A stretch of 64,000 nt of DNA from Spirochaetales bacterium (GTDB lineage: Bacteria; Spirochaetota; Spirochaetia; UBA9216), in assembly GCA_016839055.1 (NCBI GenBank), contig JAEKNX010000004.1, forward strand, positions 310,001-374,000. The letters are read 5' to 3'. The position numbers were made by a program, and so were the translations under genes. Of the stretch, positions 6,672-57,644 are shown piece by piece. Every line of letters begins with the position of its first letter. Positions within the stretch are counted from its first letter, which is position 1. A model generated the notes under the pieces. It ran no database searches and had not been told where the DNA came from. It was given only the letters and a program-made list of their open reading frames with translations.

Positions 6672-7720
6672 TGGGCGTTACAACACATAATAATAACAGC
6701 CTTGTGGAGACATCCAGGTTTATAAACGAGACAGGCCTGAAAGAACGATTTGGGAAATTAATAATACAATGGGAAGTAATTCTTGTTCTAATGTTTCTCT
6801 TTGAGATCATACTGTTCAGCAATATTTCTCCCTATTTTCTCGATTACTTTAATCTGATGAATGCAACCTTCACCTTCATGGAAAAGGCGATACTTGCTCT
6901 TCCGATGATATTTGTAATCATGTCGGGCGATATCGATATTTCGGTAGCCGCTATTATCGCGCTCTGTTCATTTTCGATGGGCTATGCCGCGGCAGCCGGA
7001 GTCGGGGCCGCGGGGCTTGTTGTAACAGGCCTCGCAGTTGGTACGGCTGCCGGCGCGTTTAACGGTTTTTTCATTACACGTTTCGGAATGCCGGCAATAG
7101 CGGTAACACTTGCGTCCTCTTCTCTGTTTCGGGGAGTATCACAGGCGGTGCTCGAAGATCAGGCATACACTAAATATCCGGATGCATTCGCTTACTTCGG
7201 CCAAGGTTATGTAGGTGATTCGGTTATTCCCTTTGAACTACTGCTGTTTGTTATACTCGCGACAGTTATGGGGTACATCCTCCATAAAACCACCTATGGT
7301 CGTAAACTGTATGCGATAGGCAATTCAGAATCGGCCGCGCGCTTTTCCGGCGTAAGGGTTAACAGAATCCGGATGATGAATTTTATGCTCAACGGCTTGT
7401 TCGCCGGCATCTCGGCTGTCCTCCTTACCTCTCGAATAGGCAGTACCAGGCCGAATATTGCGCTGGGGTTTGAACTTGAGGCAATCACACTCGTGGTCCT
7501 CGGCGGTGTATCAATCAGCGGTGGAAAGGGGAACATTTTCGGTGTTGTTCTTGCTGTATTTTTCATCGGCTACCTAAAGTTTGGAATGGGGCTGATGATG
7601 CTGTCGGCCAAGGTAATGATTATCACCACGGGCTTGCTGCTTATTATTGCAGTTCTGCTGCCGGGAGTCCTTGATACAATCAAAGGGCGTCGGAAACTTG
7701 CCAGACAGCAGATGGAGTAA
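6671..7720 (+). CDS. Sugar ABC transporter permease, RbsC family (second)
   Basis: Second membrane subunit of the same importer. Family motifs include SGDIDISVAAIIALCSFSMG and GRKLYAIGNSESAARFSGV. An in-frame ATG at 6662 touches the ribosome binding site AAAGGAG (6655-6661), so ATG 6671, nine bases from that site and overlapping the upstream stop as TGATG, is preferred; this gives 349 residues. The gene ends immediately before a tandem hairpin repeat that separates it from the mutarotase gene. Confidence 0.92.
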   Translation: MGVTTHNNNSLVETSRFINETGLKERFGKLIIQWEVILVLMFLFEIILFSNISPYFLDYFNLMNATFTFMEKAILALPMIFVIMSGDIDISVAAIIALCSFSMGYAAAAGVGAAGLVVTGLAVGTAAGAFNGFFITRFGMPAIAVTLASSSLFRGVSQAVLEDQAYTKYPDAFAYFGQGYVGDSVIPFELLLFVILATVMGYILHKTTYGRKLYAIGNSESAARFSGVRVNRIRMMNFMLNGLFAGISAVLLTSRIGSTRPNIALGFELEAITLVVLGGVSISGGKGNIFGVVLAVFFIGYLKFGMGLMMLSAKVMIITTGLLLIIAVLLPGVLDTIKGRRKLARQQME

Positions 7721-7918
7721 TCAAATTGAACGTCCCTGTTCAATTTGATTTTGGAGTTTGAAAGTTTTACTTTTCAAACTCCAACTGGGAAACTCCCTGC
7801 CGTCCCTGGCAGGCGCAGCAGATGTAGGTGTCAAATTGAACTTCCCTGTCCAATTTGATTCTGGAGTTTGAAAGTTTTTCAAACTTCGACATGGAAACTC
7901 CCTGCCGTCCCTGGCAGG
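7721..7918 (+). repeat. Two tandem copies of a three-hairpin intergenic module
   Basis: Copy 1 (7721-7813) and copy 2 (7831-7918) are near-identical and each holds three inverted repeats in order. H1 has CAAATTGAAC arms with loop GTCCCT (7722-7747) or TTCCCT (7832-7857, one mismatch in the stem). H2 is a long GGAGTTTGAAA/TTTCAAACTCC-type stem (7751-7784 and 7863-7886). H3 is CCTGCC-GTCCCT-GGCAGG (7796-7813 and 7901-7918). The second H3 ends 7 bases before the AGGTGA ribosome binding site of the mutarotase gene. Related elements occur at 8263, 16431 and 56268. No coding potential is apparent. Confidence 0.85.
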
Positions 7919-7938
7919 AGATGAGAGGTGAAGTGAGA

Positions 7939-8259
7939 ATGACGATACAGAGGCTTGCATTTAAGATGAAGATAAAACCCGGTACGGCCGCGGAATACAA
8001 GAAGCGGCATGATGAGATCTGGCCCGAGCTGGTGGGCTTACTGAAAGGCGCCGGGGTTTCCGATTATTCGATCTTCTTCGATGAAGACACAAATACTCTC
8101 TTTGCCGTCCAGAAGGTGGAGGGTGAGGGCGGCAGTCAGGATCTCGGAACAAACCCGATTATTAAAAAGTGGTGGAAGTATATGGCGGATATTATGGAAG
8201 TGAATGATGATTATTCGCCGGTGAGCATTCTGCTGCCTGAAGTTTTTTACATGGAATAG
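7939..8259 (+). CDS. rhaM: L-rhamnose mutarotase
   Basis: Interconverts alpha and beta anomers of L-rhamnose so that the isomerase can use them. It is 106 residues, close to the 104 of Escherichia coli RhaM (also called RhaU or YiiL). Family features are the start MTIQRLAFKMKIKPG, the block YKKRHDEIWPELVGLLKGAG and the tail KWWKYMADIMEVN. ATG 7939 is preferred over an in-frame extension that would translate a hairpin module, because AGGTGA (7926-7931) sits 7 bases upstream. This small enzyme is the best evidence that the upstream importer carries rhamnose. Confidence 0.9.
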   Translation: MTIQRLAFKMKIKPGTAAEYKKRHDEIWPELVGLLKGAGVSDYSIFFDEDTNTLFAVQKVEGEGGSQDLGTNPIIKKWWKYMADIMEVNDDYSPVSILLPEVFYME

Positions 8260-8262
8260 TGA

Positions 8263-8315
8263 AAAATTGAACATCAGTGTTCAATTTTATTAAGAAACCC
8301 ATCGTCTATGGTGGG
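8263..8315 (+). repeat. Shortened hairpin module (H1 and H3 only)
   Basis: H1 is a perfect 10-base stem, AAAATTGAAC, with loop ATCAGT (8263-8288). H3 is CCCATC-GTCTAT-GGTGGG (8298-8315) with one T-G pair. The long middle hairpin of the full module is absent. It fills the gap between rhaM and the URO-D gene, just upstream of that gene's GGGAGTAGGG ribosome binding region. Confidence 0.7.
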
Positions 8316-8336
8316 CATTTACGGGAGTAGGGATAA

Positions 8337-15082: not shown

Positions 15083-16441
15083 ATGTTTGATCTTATTGTA
15101 GTCGGCGCGGGACCCGCGGGTTATATTGCGGCCGAACGTGCAGGGCATATGGGAAAGAAAGTCCTCCTGGTCGAGCGCGAAGAACTCGGCGGCGTCTGTA
15201 CCAATCACGGATGCATACCGACGAAGAGCCTTCTGAATGCCGCGAAGCATTTTGTATATGGAAAAGAATCTGCACGCTTCGGTGTCCATTTCGACAATCC
15301 CAGGTTTAATTTCACCGAGGCAATGGCCTGGAAGAATGAAACTGTCCAGACTCTCCGTAAGGGAATTGCCTTTCTAATGAAGCAGGGCAAGGTTGAGGTT
15401 GTAAAAGGCCAGGCCTCCTTTCCGGGAGGAAAGAAGGTCGAAGTGGGCGGCGTGATCTATGAAGGCTCAAACCTGCTTCTTGCCACGGGCTCAGAAGCCT
15501 TTGTTCCGCCCATCCCCGGGGCTGACGGCGCCAATGTTGTAACTAACAGAGAAATTCTCAGCCTCGAGAAACTCCCTTCAAAGCTTGCCGTCATCGGCGG
15601 AGGCGTAATAGGGGTTGAGTTCGCATCCTTTTTCAGCAGTGTCGGCGTAGAGGTACATGTTATCGAGATGATGGATGAAATCTGCCCGATGATGGACACT
15701 GAGGCCGCGGGTCTTCTTCGAAAGAAGATGAGTGCTGTAGATTTCAAGCTCGGTGCCAAGGTTACTGAAGTTACACCTAGAGGTGTGAAGTACGAGAAGG
15801 CCGGAGCTGAGGAATTTATCGAGGCCGACCTTGTTTTGATGTCGGTTGGAAGACGGCCGATCACCTCAGGGCTCGAGGCTCTCGGCCTCGATATAAGCCG
15901 GCAGGGAGTCGTAGTAGATGAGCGGATGCGGACCAATCTACCCGGCGTCTACGCCGCGGGAGATGTGACGGGTAAGTCTCTTCTTGCGCACTCGGCTTCG
16001 CGAATGGCCGAGGTTGCCGTAATGAATATGTTCGGCAGCGGAAGCCAAGCGGCAAACGCCGGGGAGGCAATCGCCGTCATGCGCTATAACGCAGTGCCCT
16101 GGGCTGTTTACACTCTGCCCGAGGTCGCCGGATGCGGGATGACCGAGGCCGAAGCGAAGGAAGCCGGATATCGCTTTAAGTCGGCATCGATGCCGATGAG
16201 GGCTAACGGCCGCTTTCTCGCCGAGCATGGTAAGGATGCCGGTTTCTGCAAGGTGATCTCTGATGAGGACACCGGGTTAATTCTCGGCGTGCACATGATA
16301 GGCGCGGTCTGCTCCGAGATGATAGGGACAGCCGCGGTCTTTATTGAAGCCGAACTCAGGGTACAGGACATCATTGAGATTATCTTCCCTCATCCGTCCG
16401 TATCTGAAATTATAAAAGACGTATGCTGGAATATCATTTGA
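15083..16441 (+). CDS. lpd: Dihydrolipoamide dehydrogenase (E3)
   Basis: Reoxidises the E2 lipoyl groups and reduces NAD. The FAD motif VGAGPAG is at 7-13, the redox disulfide Cys39/Cys44 in CTNHGCIPTK, the NAD motif VIGGGVIGVEFASFF in the middle, and FPHPSVSE near the C-terminus carries the catalytic His-Glu pair. ATG 15083 follows AAAAAGGAG, so it is preferred over an in-frame start at 15044 inside the E2 gene; this gives 452 residues. The final codons and stop form one arm of a hairpin belonging to the module at 16431. Confidence 0.95.
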   Translation: MFDLIVVGAGPAGYIAAERAGHMGKKVLLVEREELGGVCTNHGCIPTKSLLNAAKHFVYGKESARFGVHFDNPRFNFTEAMAWKNETVQTLRKGIAFLMKQGKVEVVKGQASFPGGKKVEVGGVIYEGSNLLLATGSEAFVPPIPGADGANVVTNREILSLEKLPSKLAVIGGGVIGVEFASFFSSVGVEVHVIEMMDEICPMMDTEAAGLLRKKMSAVDFKLGAKVTEVTPRGVKYEKAGAEEFIEADLVLMSVGRRPITSGLEALGLDISRQGVVVDERMRTNLPGVYAAGDVTGKSLLAHSASRMAEVAVMNMFGSGSQAANAGEAIAVMRYNAVPWAVYTLPEVAGCGMTEAEAKEAGYRFKSASMPMRANGRFLAEHGKDAGFCKVISDEDTGLILGVHMIGAVCSEMIGTAAVFIEAELRVQDIIEIIFPHPSVSEIIKDVCWNII

Positions 16442-16522
16442 CCTCCATGTCAAATGATATTTTGAAGAATTGAAAGCGAGCTTCCAATTCTTCATCCATG
16501 ATTACCCGCCTTCCATGGCGGG
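16431..16522 (+). repeat. Three-hairpin intergenic module, single copy, overlapping the lpd stop codon
   Basis: H1 has 12-base arms ATATCATTTGAC with loop CTCCAT (16431-16460), and its left arm contains the lpd stop. H2 spans 16464-16493 with GAAGAATTG/CAATTCTTC arms. H3 is CCCGCC-TTCCAT-GGCGGG (16505-16522). The order, spacing and loop pattern match the tandem modules at 7721. AGGAGTGAAAT and the E1 start follow directly. Confidence 0.8.
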
Positions 16523-16544
16523 AAAAGAATATTAGGAGTGAAAT

Positions 16545-52978: not shown

Positions 52979-54769
52979 TTAAAGCTGCAGGTTTTTGATA
53001 TATTGGATTTCAGCCTCGGTCAGTCCAAAGAGCCCGGTTAGCCTCTCCTCTGAAGGAACACCAAGCGGCAGCGGCAGCTCCTCGAGGTTACTTCGGAGAA
53101 CCTTTACCGAATTAAACTTTTTAACATAGAGGAAGTTGTAAATATCCGAGTTCAGCAGCTGCATTAGGAGAGGGGCGGGAAGGCAGCCGGGTCCCGGCAG
53201 CAGGATGTTGGCGCTGTTGAGCGTCAGAGTTCCCTGCCTGTCCAGGGCGAAGACGAGCTTTTTTGAAATAAATTTGTATACAAGCTTCTCGGCGGAGCGG
53301 TATTTCCATTCAGGTGCCGTCTGCTGAAATATATCCGGCTCAAATTTAATAAAATGTGATGCCGGCCTTATCGTGCCCGGCCCTATGTCGCCGCCGCGGA
53401 TTAATGGCTCGAACCCCGGTCTATTCTCTATGCTGACATACTTTTTATTATCACCGGTAACAATTCCAAGCGCCCATTCTGCGCGGCCTGACAATGTGAA
53501 ATGCGGGACGGAATAGATCTTGTCGATTATTTTAATATCATTGCTGTTTATATTTATGTTGAAAGCAAGGCTGCTGTCAGCAGGCCGGGGATTGTCCGGA
53601 CTTGTAAGCATTTCCAGGGTGATAACAGGAGTATAGACCCCCTTGAAGATTTTTCCGAGCTTCCTGACTTTCGTTATCCTGCTTCTATCGAGGATGAGCT
53701 CCCGGACATCTTTATGCATCCTGACATTGGTTATTGATTCAGGCAGCACCAGGGAGACCATCCCTCCTATACTCGAAAGTTCGAAGGCTCGGCTGATGAA
53801 GTAGGAGAAACTCTCACCGCTTTTTATCATCGGGAATCTTTTCTCCAGCTCTGCTCTTTTTGCAGAATTGCAGGCGCCCCAGGGCGGGTTTGTGGCCGTT
53901 ATATCAAAGGCGGAAGGAAAGCCCTCCGGAGGCTGGAGCAGGCTGTCGCAGGCGAATACTTTCGGCTGAAAATCTATGTCCGGGCACTCAAGCAGGATGT
54001 TGGACGCAGCCATGAAGGCGGCTGTACTGTCCGAGTCCATTCCATATGTTCTCTCCGGAGAGCCGCCTGCCGCGATGAATGACAGCATAAACTGTCCTGT
54101 CCCGCAGCATGGGTCGACGAATAGCGGATTATCAGTCTTGAGACCTCTCATGGCCGAAGCAATCATCGACGCGGAAATGTCCGCGGGCGTGTAGAATGAA
54201 CCCGAGACTGATCTGTCGCCCCGCTGCCGCACGGCCTGGTAGATAATTCCGGCTATATCCGTCTCGGAGGGGGGCAGTTTTGGCAGGTCTATCCTCATCA
54301 TTGCAGATGCGGCCGCGGTGAAGCCGGGACTGAGGGTGAGCTCAAGCTGCATGAATCTTTCTCTCAGATGGCTGAACACCACCTTGCTGCCGTAATTATT
54401 CGGATTGAAATCCAGAAGGACTATAGGTTCCGCGGTGCTTACCTGTCCGCTATCTATAAACTGTTTTAACGAGAGCAGAAACATTAGTTCAGGGCCGTCA
54501 AGCTCTATCTTTGATACCGCGTCACAGAGGACGCGGTACTCTGCCGCGGGACTAATAGTGCCGGCAGTCTTCTTTTTATTTGCTCTCCGGTTAAGTCTGT
54601 CAATCTCTCCGCTCTGGATCTTTTCAAGGAGGCTGAGAACTTCACTCTTCCTGTAGCCTCCATCCTGTTTGGTGAGATATTCGTGTCTTTCCCAGTTTAG
54701 AATACTTGCTTTCGAGATACCTATAAGTTGTGCCGTCTGTGCTGCCGTGAGCAGGTCGCTACCAATCAT
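52979..54769 (-). CDS. Adenine-specific DNA methyltransferase with N-terminal helix-turn-helix
   Basis: Class I N6-adenine methyltransferase of 596 residues. Residues 1-60 look like a MerR-type helix-turn-helix (TAAQTAQLIGISKASILNWE). The SAM motif is FVDPCCGTGQFMLSFI and the catalytic motif NPPW lies in ITATNPPWGAC. A C-terminal region resembles the target-recognition part of TaqI/Eco57I-type enzymes. No restriction endonuclease gene is adjacent, so it may be solitary, with a regulatory or protective role. It starts 39 bases after the sucrose phosphorylase-family gene, an unusual operon partner. Confidence 0.85.
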   Translation of the reverse strand: MIGSDLLTAAQTAQLIGISKASILNWERHEYLTKQDGGYRKSEVLSLLEKIQSGEIDRLNRRANKKKTAGTISPAAEYRVLCDAVSKIELDGPELMFLLSLKQFIDSGQVSTAEPIVLLDFNPNNYGSKVVFSHLRERFMQLELTLSPGFTAAASAMMRIDLPKLPPSETDIAGIIYQAVRQRGDRSVSGSFYTPADISASMIASAMRGLKTDNPLFVDPCCGTGQFMLSFIAAGGSPERTYGMDSDSTAAFMAASNILLECPDIDFQPKVFACDSLLQPPEGFPSAFDITATNPPWGACNSAKRAELEKRFPMIKSGESFSYFISRAFELSSIGGMVSLVLPESITNVRMHKDVRELILDRSRITKVRKLGKIFKGVYTPVITLEMLTSPDNPRPADSSLAFNININSNDIKIIDKIYSVPHFTLSGRAEWALGIVTGDNKKYVSIENRPGFEPLIRGGDIGPGTIRPASHFIKFEPDIFQQTAPEWKYRSAEKLVYKFISKKLVFALDRQGTLTLNSANILLPGPGCLPAPLLMQLLNSDIYNFLYVKKFNSVKVLRSNLEELPLPLGVPSEERLTGLFGLTEAEIQYIKNLQL

Positions 54770-54808: not shown

Positions 54809-56251
54809 CTACGGTCTGAAACTTCTTATCTCTCCACCGGCGTCCTTTAAGGTTATGATCGTCCTTTTAATAGATAAATCGGCGGTCAGCACGGCAGTTT
54901 CCCCGTCCTTATTCCAGATTATCTCAAGAGTCTTGTTGTCCTTGTTTTCAGATAGAGAAAAATTCCCTTCAAATGCAGTACATGTCATCCTTAATTTCAT
55001 CAGATTTTTAAGCCGCCGCACAACCGGGCGGTTCATCTCTTCGGAGATTTCAGAGTTTGAGTAGTTGTGGCGGTTTATGTCGCGCCCGTTGCGGGTTGCC
55101 TCTACAAGCTCTGTATCGTTTTTTCCCGCGAGAGCACCGACGTAATATACCTGAGGGGTTCCGGGAGTGAAAAACTGTATTGCCCTTGCCATTATGTAGG
55201 CATCATCTTCCTCTCCAATGGCTGAGTAGAAGGTACAGTTTATCTGGTAGATATCGAGGTTCTGGTATTCGGAGGTGGAGTATTTTCTCTTGATATTCGA
55301 CCCCCGGCTGTAGAGTTTTTCCACAGTAAAATCGGTTTGTTCAGGGGTGAGCAGGTCGGCCGCGTCGACAACTCCGATGCCGTCGTGGGTATCGAGGGTT
55401 GTGAACTGCTTTCTCGGGCAGATTGAAAGCCAGTTTTTCAAGGGGGAGAAGTCTTCGGCGTACCATGAATACAGCAGCAGCAGAGGGAGTGCAAAGTCAT
55501 ATACCCTATACCCCTTGGACGCCATCTTGAGCTGAATGCTATAGTGCTCATGCATTTCAGGAAGAAGTTCAATATTGAATTTCGACGCAATGGCTTCCAG
55601 TTTTTCAAGAGTCTCCCAGATGTCCGGCTCTACCATGAAGCAGGAGGTTCCGCGCTTTTTTGTTATGTAGCCCACGGCGTCCAGTCTGACCATGTTTATT
55701 CCACCGTCTTTAAGCCTGCGGAGCGTCTTTCTAAAGAGGCTCTCGCCTGCTTCAGAAGAGATGTCTATGTCTATCTGCTGCTCTGAAAATGTACACCAGA
55801 CCTTCCTCTCTGTTCCTGATGGAAAGTTTATTGTAAGCCACGGCTCGGTCGGCTGCCGACGGTAGATGGCCGAAATCTCTTTTTCGGTTGGGCCCGCTTC
55901 ACCGAAGATCTTTTCAATCGGAAGAAACAGTCCTGAATACCGGGAATCATCTTCATTTTTAAGCCAATCTTTGAAGTAGACTGATTCTCTCGATATATGG
56001 TTAACCATAAAGTCGGCTATTATTTCGTAGTCGGCGCCCAGGGCAGCGGTATCCTCCCAGCTTCCCAGCGTTGAATCTACTTCGTCGTAATTGATAGGTG
56101 AAAAACCCCTGTCTCCCGATGATGGGAAGAAGGGGAGGAGGTGTATTCCAGAGAAACATCCCTGGAAGTTCTTATTCAGGTTGGAGAGGAGGGCTTTCAG
56201 ATTCCCTCCGAGGCTGTCGGCATAGGTGATTAACACAACTCCGTTTTTCAT
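54809..56251 (-). CDS. gtfA: Sucrose phosphorylase-family enzyme (GH13_18)
   Basis: Cytoplasmic glycoside phosphorylase of 480 residues. Catalytic residues fall almost exactly where they do in Bifidobacterium sucrose phosphorylase: Asp191 in MVRLDAVGY, Glu232 in LLPEMHEHYS and Asp290 in TLDTHDGIGV. The start NGVVLITYADSLGGNLKAL is typical. It would split an imported alpha-glucoside with phosphate, releasing glucose 1-phosphate. Sucrose, sucrose 6-phosphate, glucosylglycerate and glucosylglycerol are all possible substrates in this subfamily. The aglEFG-like importer genes lie upstream in the same direction. A block of hairpins precedes its ribosome binding site. Confidence 0.9.
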   Translation of the reverse strand: MKNGVVLITYADSLGGNLKALLSNLNKNFQGCFSGIHLLPFFPSSGDRGFSPINYDEVDSTLGSWEDTAALGADYEIIADFMVNHISRESVYFKDWLKNEDDSRYSGLFLPIEKIFGEAGPTEKEISAIYRRQPTEPWLTINFPSGTERKVWCTFSEQQIDIDISSEAGESLFRKTLRRLKDGGINMVRLDAVGYITKKRGTSCFMVEPDIWETLEKLEAIASKFNIELLPEMHEHYSIQLKMASKGYRVYDFALPLLLLYSWYAEDFSPLKNWLSICPRKQFTTLDTHDGIGVVDAADLLTPEQTDFTVEKLYSRGSNIKRKYSTSEYQNLDIYQINCTFYSAIGEEDDAYIMARAIQFFTPGTPQVYYVGALAGKNDTELVEATRNGRDINRHNYSNSEISEEMNRPVVRRLKNLMKLRMTCTAFEGNFSLSENKDNKTLEIIWNKDGETAVLTADLSIKRTIITLKDAGGEIRSFRP

Positions 56252-56267
56252 TTATTACTCCTAATAT

Positions 56268-56543
56268 CCCGCCACAGATGGCGGGTGAATTAAGTGAAGT
56301 TTGAAAGGCTCTGCCTTCAAACTTCAGAAAAACCTTGCCATGGAAGGTCGTAGATTAACCCCGCCATGGATGGCGGGTGAATGAAGCGAAGTTTGAAAGG
56401 CTCTGCCTTTAAACTTCAGAAAGAAATTGGACATGGAAGGTCTTATATTAACCCGCCACGGAGGGCGGGCAAACCAGGGCGAAGTATTAAAAGTTTTGCT
56501 TTTAATACTTCTAAATGAAATTGAACAAGGATGTTCAATTTCA
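56268..56543 (-). repeat. Array of hairpin modules between aglG and gtfA
   Basis: Read on the minus strand, a full module comes first: H1 with arms TGAAATTGAAC (56543-56516), H2 (56511-56481, 13-base stem) and H3 (56469-56452). Two further H2-H3 units follow (56417-56388 with 56377-56360, and 56325-56296 with 56285-56268), each preceded by a decayed H1 that keeps a TTCCAT centre. H3 stems are all CCCGCC/GGCGGG with sense loops CTCCGT, ATCCAT and ATCTGT; the intact H1 loop is ATCCTT. The last H3 ends 16 bases before the gtfA start, with AGGAGT between. These are the same kind of elements as at 7721, 8263 and 16431. Confidence 0.85.
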
Positions 56544-57644
56544 TTACCCCTTAACAGAGCCTGCTGTGAGCCCTCGAACGAAAAATCGCTGGAGGCCGAA
56601 GAATACAGCAATGGGAATAATCATGCTCAGGAAGGCACCGGCTGTCAGCAGATGCCAGTCTTGTCCCTTCTCTCCTACCATGGCGGCAAGGGCGCTGGTG
56701 ACAACCCTGTTTTTATCTCCAAGAAAGACAAGTGCCACAAGGTAATCGTTCCAGACCCAGAGAAACTGGAATATGGCAAAGCTTGCGAGTGCCGGAATTG
56801 AAAGCGGCAGAACCAGTTTGACAAAGGTGACAAATGGAGTTGCCCCGTCTAGGTATGCCGACTCGAAGATATCGCGCGGGAGATTGCTTATATAATTATA
56901 CAGAAGATAGATCGCCAGAGGCAGGCCGAAGCTTGTGTGGGCAAGCCACATACCTACAAAGGTTCCGTTCAGCCCCCATTTTGTAAAATCTCTCAGGATT
57001 GGAATCAGGGCAATCTGGAGAGGGACTACCAGGAGGGCTACAACGATGATGAATAGTGGTTTTCGTCCGGGGAATTCCATCCAGGAGAAGGCGTAGGCGG
57101 CAAAGGCCGCAATCAGGATCGGGATGATCGTAGCCGGGATGCTTACGGCAATAGAGTTTAGTACCGCGTCGGAGAAATTATTCCCCTGGCGGGAGATCGT
57201 ATTTCCTTCGCCGTCGGTGTATTCTATTTCTCCCGCGCTCAGGACGTCCCTGTAATTCTGCAGGTTCAGGTTAGCCCCGAATCCTATCCATTTTTCTTCA
57301 AAGATCTCAACCTTGCGGGTACGCTTATTTCCGTACCATTTTAAGGTTCGCCCTTCCTCAACTTCAATTCCGTTGCGCCATTCGTTAAATGAGGCTGTAA
57401 CTCCTTCAATCTCAATCGGCTGATCCGGATCAAGCTCAGAGGGCATCTCCATTTCTCCGGTTTTGACGAAGTCTTTATGAGGCAGAACTGTCCACCAGCC
57501 CGAACTGTAGATGTCTCTCGAATCACGGAAAGAGGTTATGAAAACACCTAGGGTCGGAACTGTCCATAGTACTACAATGACTATAAGGACGATGCCTATC
57601 AGAGGATTTGACTTGCTTCTATTCAATTTGATTTTTTTCCTCAT
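56544..57644 (-). CDS. aglG: Sugar ABC permease, AglG/MalG-like
   Basis: Inner-membrane subunit of an alpha-glucoside importer, 366 residues. A first helix (about 14-35) is followed by a large soluble insert of roughly 120 residues before the permease core, a trait I associate with AglG. The core includes the EAA loop as ESAYLDGATPFVTFVKLVLP. It overlaps aglF by 4 bases. Its stop abuts the hairpin array. The substrate assignment rests on this architecture and the neighbouring sucrose phosphorylase-family gene. Confidence 0.87.
   Translation of the reverse strand: MRKKIKLNRSKSNPLIGIVLIVIVVLWTVPTLGVFITSFRDSRDIYSSGWWTVLPHKDFVKTGEMEMPSELDPDQPIEIEGVTASFNEWRNGIEVEEGRTLKWYGNKRTRKVEIFEEKWIGFGANLNLQNYRDVLSAGEIEYTDGEGNTISRQGNNFSDAVLNSIAVSIPATIIPILIAAFAAYAFSWMEFPGRKPLFIIVVALLVVPLQIALIPILRDFTKWGLNGTFVGMWLAHTSFGLPLAIYLLYNYISNLPRDIFESAYLDGATPFVTFVKLVLPLSIPALASFAIFQFLWVWNDYLVALVFLGDKNRVVTSALAAMVGEKGQDWHLLTAGAFLSMIIPIAVFFGLQRFFVRGLTAGSVKG

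Follow-up and report, generated by a model that had tools for sequence, protein, structure and literature searches.

Within a 64,000-nt stretch of a Spirochaetales genome (the whole of the DNA analyzed, referred to below as the window), a gap between two genes on the minus strand is filled from end to end with hairpins, which raises the question of what this array is and how it came to lie there. As set out below, it most probably consists of three tandem copies of a non-coding, non-autonomous mobile element of about 100 bp, which carries three hairpins and inserts in one orientation at the Shine-Dalgarno (SD) sequence.

Layout of the Hairpin Array

The gap measures 292 nt (56252-56543). On the minus strand, it separates an ABC sugar-transporter permease gene (56544-57644; PF00528, E 7.1e-15), named aglG in the initial annotation and ending with a stop codon at 56544-56546, from an alpha-amylase/sucrose-phosphorylase-like gene (54809-56251; PF00128, E 2.3e-10), which starts at 56249-56251. 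Read on the gene strand from 56552 to 56252, three units of a hairpin element follow one another in the order H1-H2-H3, decayed H1-H2-H3, and decayed H1-H2-H3. The initial annotation had likewise described the gap as filled by three H2-H3 units, of which the first has a full H1. Unit 1 (56450-56552; H1 56514-56545, H2 56481-56511, H3 56452-56469) is complete and contains the only intact H1 of the array, with 14 perfect pairs. In unit 2 (56358-56456; H2 56388-56417, H3 56360-56377) and unit 3 (56266-56363; H2 56296-56325, H3 56268-56285), most of the 5′ arm of H1 is missing and TTCCAT is retained, just as had been proposed for the later H1 elements. The units are supported by matches to a model, R1, built from 21 copies of the element (unit 1: E 9.5e-11, unit 1 being itself among the 21 sequences; units 2 and 3, which are not in the model: E 3.8e-8 and 1.4e-4) and, for units 2 and 3, by repeat analysis as well. 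Units 2 and 3 are spaced 92 nt apart and are 89% identical over 70 nt.

The H3 stems are identical (CCCGCC/GGCGGG) in all three units and the loops differ (ACAGAT, ATGGAT, and ACGGAG on the plus strand in units 3, 2, and 1, respectively), as the initial annotation had noticed. Allowing at most one mismatch, this H3 palindrome occurs four times in the window, compared with a mean of 0.19 and a maximum of two in shuffled sequences (none of 100 shuffles reached four). The predicted fold of the 301-nt strand has a free energy of −122.7 kcal/mol (z = −9.84, 0/100 shuffles as good). Inverted repeats in the array are confined to the internal hairpins and a match between neighboring H2s; no inverted repeat joins the two ends of a unit, as the terminal repeats of a MITE would. 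The array is bordered by two SD-like direct repeats that are identical at 9 of 11 positions, AGGGGTAATGA at 56541-56551 (minus strand), which includes the permease stop codon, and AGGAGTAATAA at 56252-56262 (minus strand), which is the SD of the alpha-amylase-family gene. An N6-adenine DNA methylase gene with a TaqI-like specificity domain (52979-54769, minus strand) adjoins this sugar operon.

GC-rich hairpins located between genes could be intrinsic or bidirectional transcription terminators, and the initial annotation had implied a link to transcript ends. No terminator-like site (a GC hairpin followed by a T-run) was found in the array, against 0.7 expected in shuffles, and other copies of the element lie inside operons such as rpoBC. 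This reading was therefore rejected as extremely improbable, and the implied link to transcript ends is not supported.

Copies of the Element in the Window, the Genome, and Related Species

The second array of the same family reported by the initial annotation is indeed present at 7712-7920, where two units were found on the plus strand: 7712-7815, which is matched on the minus strand by the Rfam family TD-2 with 57.9 bits, above the cut-off, and 7822-7920, an R1 match that precedes the rhaM gene. The window also contains an H1-H3 deletion derivative between rhaM and the next gene (8254-8317, plus strand; R1 match, E 0.004) and a single copy between a pyridine-nucleotide-disulphide-oxidoreductase-like gene and a dehydrogenase-E1/transketolase gene (16426-16524, plus strand). 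H2 is the only hairpin paired in R1, since the differing lengths of H1 could not be brought into register during alignment. At E ≤ 0.1, it gave 48 matches in the genome that contains the window (G000) and 19, 18, 22, and 64 matches in four congeneric genomes (G001-G004). The operons concerned are diverse, with rpoBC, flgFG, and pyrBI among them, which shows the dispersal that had been proposed. In two other genomes of the same family, one match (G006) and none (G005) were obtained. With stricter filters (E ≤ 1e-4), 14 of 248 genomes of the class had a match. They comprise the five genomes of the genus, a further one from its family, seven from family f24, and another one besides.

The local expansion suggested by the initial annotation is also borne out, by three units in the studied gap, a junction at which two congeners have no unit, and by a threefold tandem at another locus of the same genome (L115:1558-1850; G000:C3:120057-120349). 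There, three near-exact 100-bp units, each composed of the element and CAGGAGAATTA, are arranged head to tail and the last is followed by CAGGAGAATTAAATG; we read this tandem, which lies before a gene with a lipoyl-domain-like start, as a very recent expansion. A fixed copy number and a lack of homologues elsewhere, which the initial annotation had named as speaking against its proposal, are the opposite of what was found.

Several copies are more elaborate. An extra hairpin is nested in the H1 or H2 loop at six loci (L135, L143, L348, L133, L164, and L165; for example ..AAGTACTTCGTACTTT..), and in H3 of several others (L120, L121, and L126), giving palindromes within palindromes. A different repeat, GGTGGAG..GGAGTTTTGGC/GCCAAAACATCCAT, which obtains weak TD-2 scores (L033-L037, L039), is clustered at contig ends (C14, C33, C34, and C43).

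Position and Orientation Relative to Genes

The downstream gene is on the H1-H2-H3 strand at 49/49 units of the studied genome (44 sites) and at 52 of 54 congeneric units, the latter taken from 123 counted. Both neighboring genes are on the strand of the element at 47/49 and 41/54 units, respectively; gene contexts came from a simple longest-ORF caller, and some of the same-strand exceptions may be miscalls. The 49 units include 56358-56456, from the R1 search, and two weak matches (E 0.004 and 0.025). The orientation of the element relative to genes is thus fixed.

Its position is equally constrained. H3 is followed by the start codon after 13-23 nt at 35 of 44 sites and after 29-60 nt at the remaining nine, some of which have a longer, nested H3. 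The usual frame is TAGGAGGAATGATAAAA-H1-H2-H3-TTATAGGAG-N6-ATG, so that the element is located at the SD. At its 5′ edge, an SD-like core was present within 20 nt at 66 of 98 sites (103 units minus five array units), compared with 5.7% of random 20-nt windows. The initial annotation had missed both this location at the ribosome-binding site and the constant orientation. The neighboring genes have no common theme (rpoC, flgG, ybaB, pyrI, rhaM, and genes encoding MotA/TolQ/ExbB-like and ETF proteins).

Hairpin-shaped, intergenic repeats that are dispersed and also form tandem arrays recall the REP-type palindromes that a Y1 (IS200/RAYT) transposase mobilizes, but the fixed orientation relative to genes is at odds with such an origin. 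Moreover, no Y1_Tnp domain (PF01797) was detected in G000, G001, G002, G004, G029, or G049. The domain was found in six of the 15 genomes searched, including the element-poor G006, G007, G008, G010, and G087, and G003 was the only element-rich genome that had it. Because the Y1 transposase is absent from the studied genome and from most element-rich genomes, we rejected this explanation, which is highly improbable.

Empty Sites at Orthologous Junctions

The orthologous junctions of 12 genes preceded by the element in the studied genome, and of the alpha-amylase-family gene, were looked up in eight genomes; presence and absence were compared between species, and the genomes are mostly drafts. 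At all 13 junctions, at least one congener had a tight, element-free junction, a presence/absence pattern at orthologous sites of the kind expected of MITEs. Thirty-five junctions were recovered in the four congeners (G001-G004). Two contained the element (rpoC in G001 and flgG in G004), four had a longer gap (43-162 nt) without a recognized element, and 29 were tight (−10 to 27 nt), one of which, that of the alpha-amylase-family gene in G003, belongs to a distant relative.

At rpoB-rpoC, the two genes are 110 nt apart with the element in the studied genome and 11 nt apart in an empty example. The empty junction of G003 reads TAA-GGAGTAAATGA>atg, and the distance is 9-15 nt in the outgroups G005, G006, G007, and G010. 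The junction occupied by the studied array, 292 nt long here, is reduced to 3 nt in the congener G002 (AAGGGGTAATAT>ttg) and to 10 nt, as determined by eye, in G001, where the upstream sequence encodes the same permease C-terminus. The element is therefore an insertion relative to these empty sites, and its copy number varies between species. Gain is more probable than loss, since the outgroups recovered at several junctions, rpoC among them, are also empty. What is new here is that these comparisons identify the element as having inserted at the SD sequence of tightly spaced gene junctions.

SD-Like Flanks and Possible Target Duplication

An SD-like sequence is frequently found on either side of the element, which leaves the upstream gene with its stop codon and the downstream gene with its SD. 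At flgG, the empty sites read TATAGGGGTA (TATAGGGG in G001 and G003), and in the filled site of G004 the element is flanked by TATAGGGG left and right. For pyrI, G001 and G006 are empty and have CTTACAGGAG within the end of the upstream gene, and ACAGGAG is found on both sides of the filled site. To compare flanks more generally, we excluded eight array units and then, from the 95 left, a further 29 that had no recognizable core or full flank on both sides. The two flanks of one copy agreed at 7.42 of 12 positions, compared with 6.94 for re-paired flanks, and none of 2000 re-pairings was as high (n = 66). The effect is real but modest. At rpoC, neither of the two filled sites has AGGAG at its 5′ edge. 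Because of this missing left SD and of the modest effect, we do not claim a target duplication of fixed length; a true duplication is partly shown and appears clear only in some copies, such as flgG in G004 and pyrI. As the element's own ends are also SD-like (..TTATAGGAG), recombination at a shared AGGAG core is a possible alternative.

Conservation of the Hairpins and Possible RNA Roles of Either Strand

Hairpins below the score thresholds, or with loops that could not be set to 6 nt, were left out of the comparison of stems and loops. For H1, 87 of 102 hairpins could be set to a 6-nt loop, and 70 of these 87 loops read NTCCNT; for H3, the corresponding counts were 77 of 96 and 59 of 77. The loops of H1 and H3 are mostly closed by a C-G pair, and both hairpins share the motif C[NTCCRT]G. 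Stems are 94-96% Watson-Crick, and most stem positions show several kinds of Watson-Crick pairs (at H1 pair 4, all four kinds were observed and pairing was kept in 84 of 87 copies), so the stems stay paired while their sequence changes.

Selection acting on an RNA from one strand should favor GU pairs on that strand. After removal of noisy H3 alignment rows (false extension), departures from pairing on the gene strand were GU in 35 cases and AC in 44 (p 0.37), with no strand preference. In 15 terminator-like hairpins used as a control, GU was counted nine times and AC three times, a sample too small to lean on. Equal numbers of GU and AC are compatible with recognition at the DNA level or with neutral decay after insertion.

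The loops initially led us to consider a CsrA sponge. When the opposite strand from that of the genes is read, the loops of H1 and H3 are AYGGAN (70/87 and 59/77, respectively), which is the loop form bound by CsrA/RsmA, and ACAAGGAUGU in unit 1 matches the SELEX consensus. A CsrA gene is present in the studied genome and in 75 of 98 genomes searched. TwoAYGGAY and the reverse complement of Bacillaceae-1 have been proposed as CsrA-binding sRNAs on similar evidence (PMC4333381). However, a GGA in a hairpin loop (ANGGA) is found only on the strand opposite to the genes, and at 49/49 units of the studied genome this is the antisense strand of the downstream gene. No excess of promoter-like sites was found (one, on the gene strand, against 0.5 expected), GU is not in excess on either strand, copies are gained and lost between congeners, and the TwoAYGGAY model itself scores only 22.5 bits, with a cut-off of 43. 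A CsrA-binding RNA, whether a sponge or a regulatory site, was dropped as the main reading because the GGA strand is antisense to genes almost everywhere, and we consider it very unlikely. The hairpins of the element could nevertheless mislead searches for CsrA-binding RNAs.

On the sense strand, the element might be a cis-regulatory or mRNA-processing leader of the host (an intercistronic stabilizer, an RNase III site, or a translational control element) that has spread because it is useful. Its strict sense placement 5′ of the SD and its strong predicted folding fit this idea, as does the Rfam type 'Cis-reg' given to the TD-1 family described below. On the other hand, the neighboring genes have no common theme, the orthologous genes of sister species do without the element, GU is no commoner than AC, and two of the three H1s of the studied array are broken. 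We therefore regard a host leader as unlikely to be what the element primarily is, and a secondary effect of the element on expression as likely.

Relationship to the Rfam Families TD-1 and TD-2

The closest Rfam family is TD-2 (RF03162, clan CL00124, typed as an sRNA gene), which matches the strand opposite to the genes. Unit 1, the best-scoring unit of the studied array, obtains 42.9 bits, below the cut-off of 48.7, over model positions 1-98 of 98, so that all three hairpins are covered. The cut-off was passed by six of 30 matches listed for the studied genome, including the one at 7715-7813 in the window (57.9 bits). TD-2 shares with the element a set of three hairpins that follow one another in an identical order along one strand, and GGA is present in the loops of H1 and H3. 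Within this genus, genes are antisense to the TD-2 strand and the element is located at SDs, whereas neither holds at the loci examined in the TD-2-rich genomes G029 and G049, which, to judge from the TD names in Rfam, are presumably Treponema denticola-like. Since TD-2 in that genus is not at SDs in this orientation, SD targeting is not common to every relative. Weak TD-2 matches were also obtained in a family without a detected CsrA (L058, L067, and L074 in G070; L060 and L068 in G008); most of their hairpins lack GGA loops, and they look like other repeats. Another Rfam match in the window, well above its cut-off, is a molybdenum/tungsten cofactor (Moco) riboswitch (RF01055; 29769-29887, plus strand, 75.1 bits).

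TD-1 (RF03155), typed as cis-regulatory, shares clan CL00124 with TD-2 and overlaps it on opposite strands in G029. In the studied genome, no TD-1 match was obtained at E ≤ 0.01 and none reached the cut-off (64.5 bits). At 22 of 23 loci examined in G029 and G049, TD-1 lies directly 5′ of the SD with the downstream gene in sense, and the element shares this placement in cis, 5′ of genes and in sense, at 49/49 units of the studied genome. TD-1 also resembles the element in beginning just after GGAG, with ATGATAAA, and it ends ..TATAGGAG; it differs in its other internal hairpins and its greater length.

Nineteen of 20 TD-1 sites of G029 had no TD-1 match at the orthologous junction of the relative G049, with the reservation that L240 and its G049 orthologue share only 53% identity, so that the latter might be a paralogue. 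A weak TD-1 match (E 0.003) extends into the remaining junction, three more junctions contain short remnants seen by eye, and no remnant was seen at the others. At L235, for example, the empty site reads AATAAGGAGAAACAAA>atg and the filled site AATAAGGAG-TD-1-TATAGGAGAAGAAA>atg. In the flank test, one of 2000 re-pairings of TD-1 flanks was as high as the true pairing (n = 21). The G049 junctions corresponding to L222 and L241, in which RTGATAAAC is joined to the SD, look like the footprints of near-complete TD-1 deletions. The 5′ side of five TD-1 copies of G029 (L215, L220, L228, L232, and L240) carries ..GTTTTTATAGGAG or a similar sequence, that is, the 3′ end of the element, as if insertions had been stacked at one SD.

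TD-1 and TD-2 appear to belong to the group of the element. A literature search for 'TD-1 RNA' and 'TD-2 RNA' returned no paper, the original description probably being outside the literature covered. Given the gain and loss of copies, the insertion at SDs, and stems without strand preference, mobile DNA seems to fit better than the present RNA typing, clearly so for TD-1 and the elements of this genus and by clan membership only for TD-2 proper. This would amount to a testable correction to two Rfam families, typed as cis-regulatory RNA (TD-1) and sRNA (TD-2).

A Possible Mechanism of Insertion

We propose that the element targets the SD (AGGAG) in the interval from a stop codon to the start codon that follows it. 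This asymmetric target would impose the single orientation, with H1 toward the upstream gene and H3 toward the downstream gene. After insertion, an SD-like sequence would be present on both sides, the left one associated with the upstream stop codon and the right one serving the downstream gene at normal spacing. Such an arrangement would be tolerated even inside rpoBC, which may explain the survival of the element in essential operons. Inserted copies would then decay largely neutrally, and some would expand in tandem; the studied array may have arisen in this manner, as suggested by the spacing and likeness of units 2 and 3 and by the near-exact case of L115.

Mobility would depend on an enzyme that acts in trans and recognizes the hairpins in their DNA or RNA form, and it is conceivable, as an idea, that the TCC loops pair with the GGA of the SD. 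When the conserved 5′ end AGGAGGAATGATAAAA, with one mismatch allowed, was used to look for an autonomous copy, 31 matches were obtained in three genomes and none for a reversed control; the nine loci inspected were copies of the element and a few unrelated sequences, and no longer copy or transposase was seen among them. The full scheme, in which a non-Y1 enzyme moves the hairpin DNA or RNA one way to AGGAG sites throughout the genome, guided by UCC loops through GGA, with the SD rebuilt behind the element and with TD-1 and TD-2 as members of the same mobile group instead of regulatory RNAs, is tentative, and we hold it to be possible rather than probable.

Comparison with Known Repeats

TwoAYGGAY (RF01731, clan CL00106) resembles the element in its paired hairpins with AYGGAY-type loops on one strand, but at the score reported above the element is not a member of this family. 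REP/RAYT sequences are likewise palindromic extragenic repeats found singly and in arrays, from which the element differs by the lack of a Y1 transposase in its own genome, by its larger three-hairpin unit, and by its SD-specific, oriented insertion. It also resembles RUP, BOX, Correia, ERIC, and YPAL/RU-2, which are likewise small, hairpin-rich, non-coding, non-autonomous, and intergenic. For YPAL/RU-2, inverted repeats within the unit and target duplications that vary in size have also been described (PMC2229807). Unlike these MITE-like repeats, the element has no terminal inverted repeat and no TA target, and it is found in a fixed orientation at SDs. In the portions of the literature searched, the SD is not described as a target of any of these five families, and the only source found to join the SD with small mobile repeats was PMC3049150, on pneumococcal repeats, in which one mention of the SD was found. 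Mobile hairpin repeats are common, but the SD as a landing site that is then restored would be new and, if true, would be a new answer to the problem of entering operons, even rpoBC, without killing the host.
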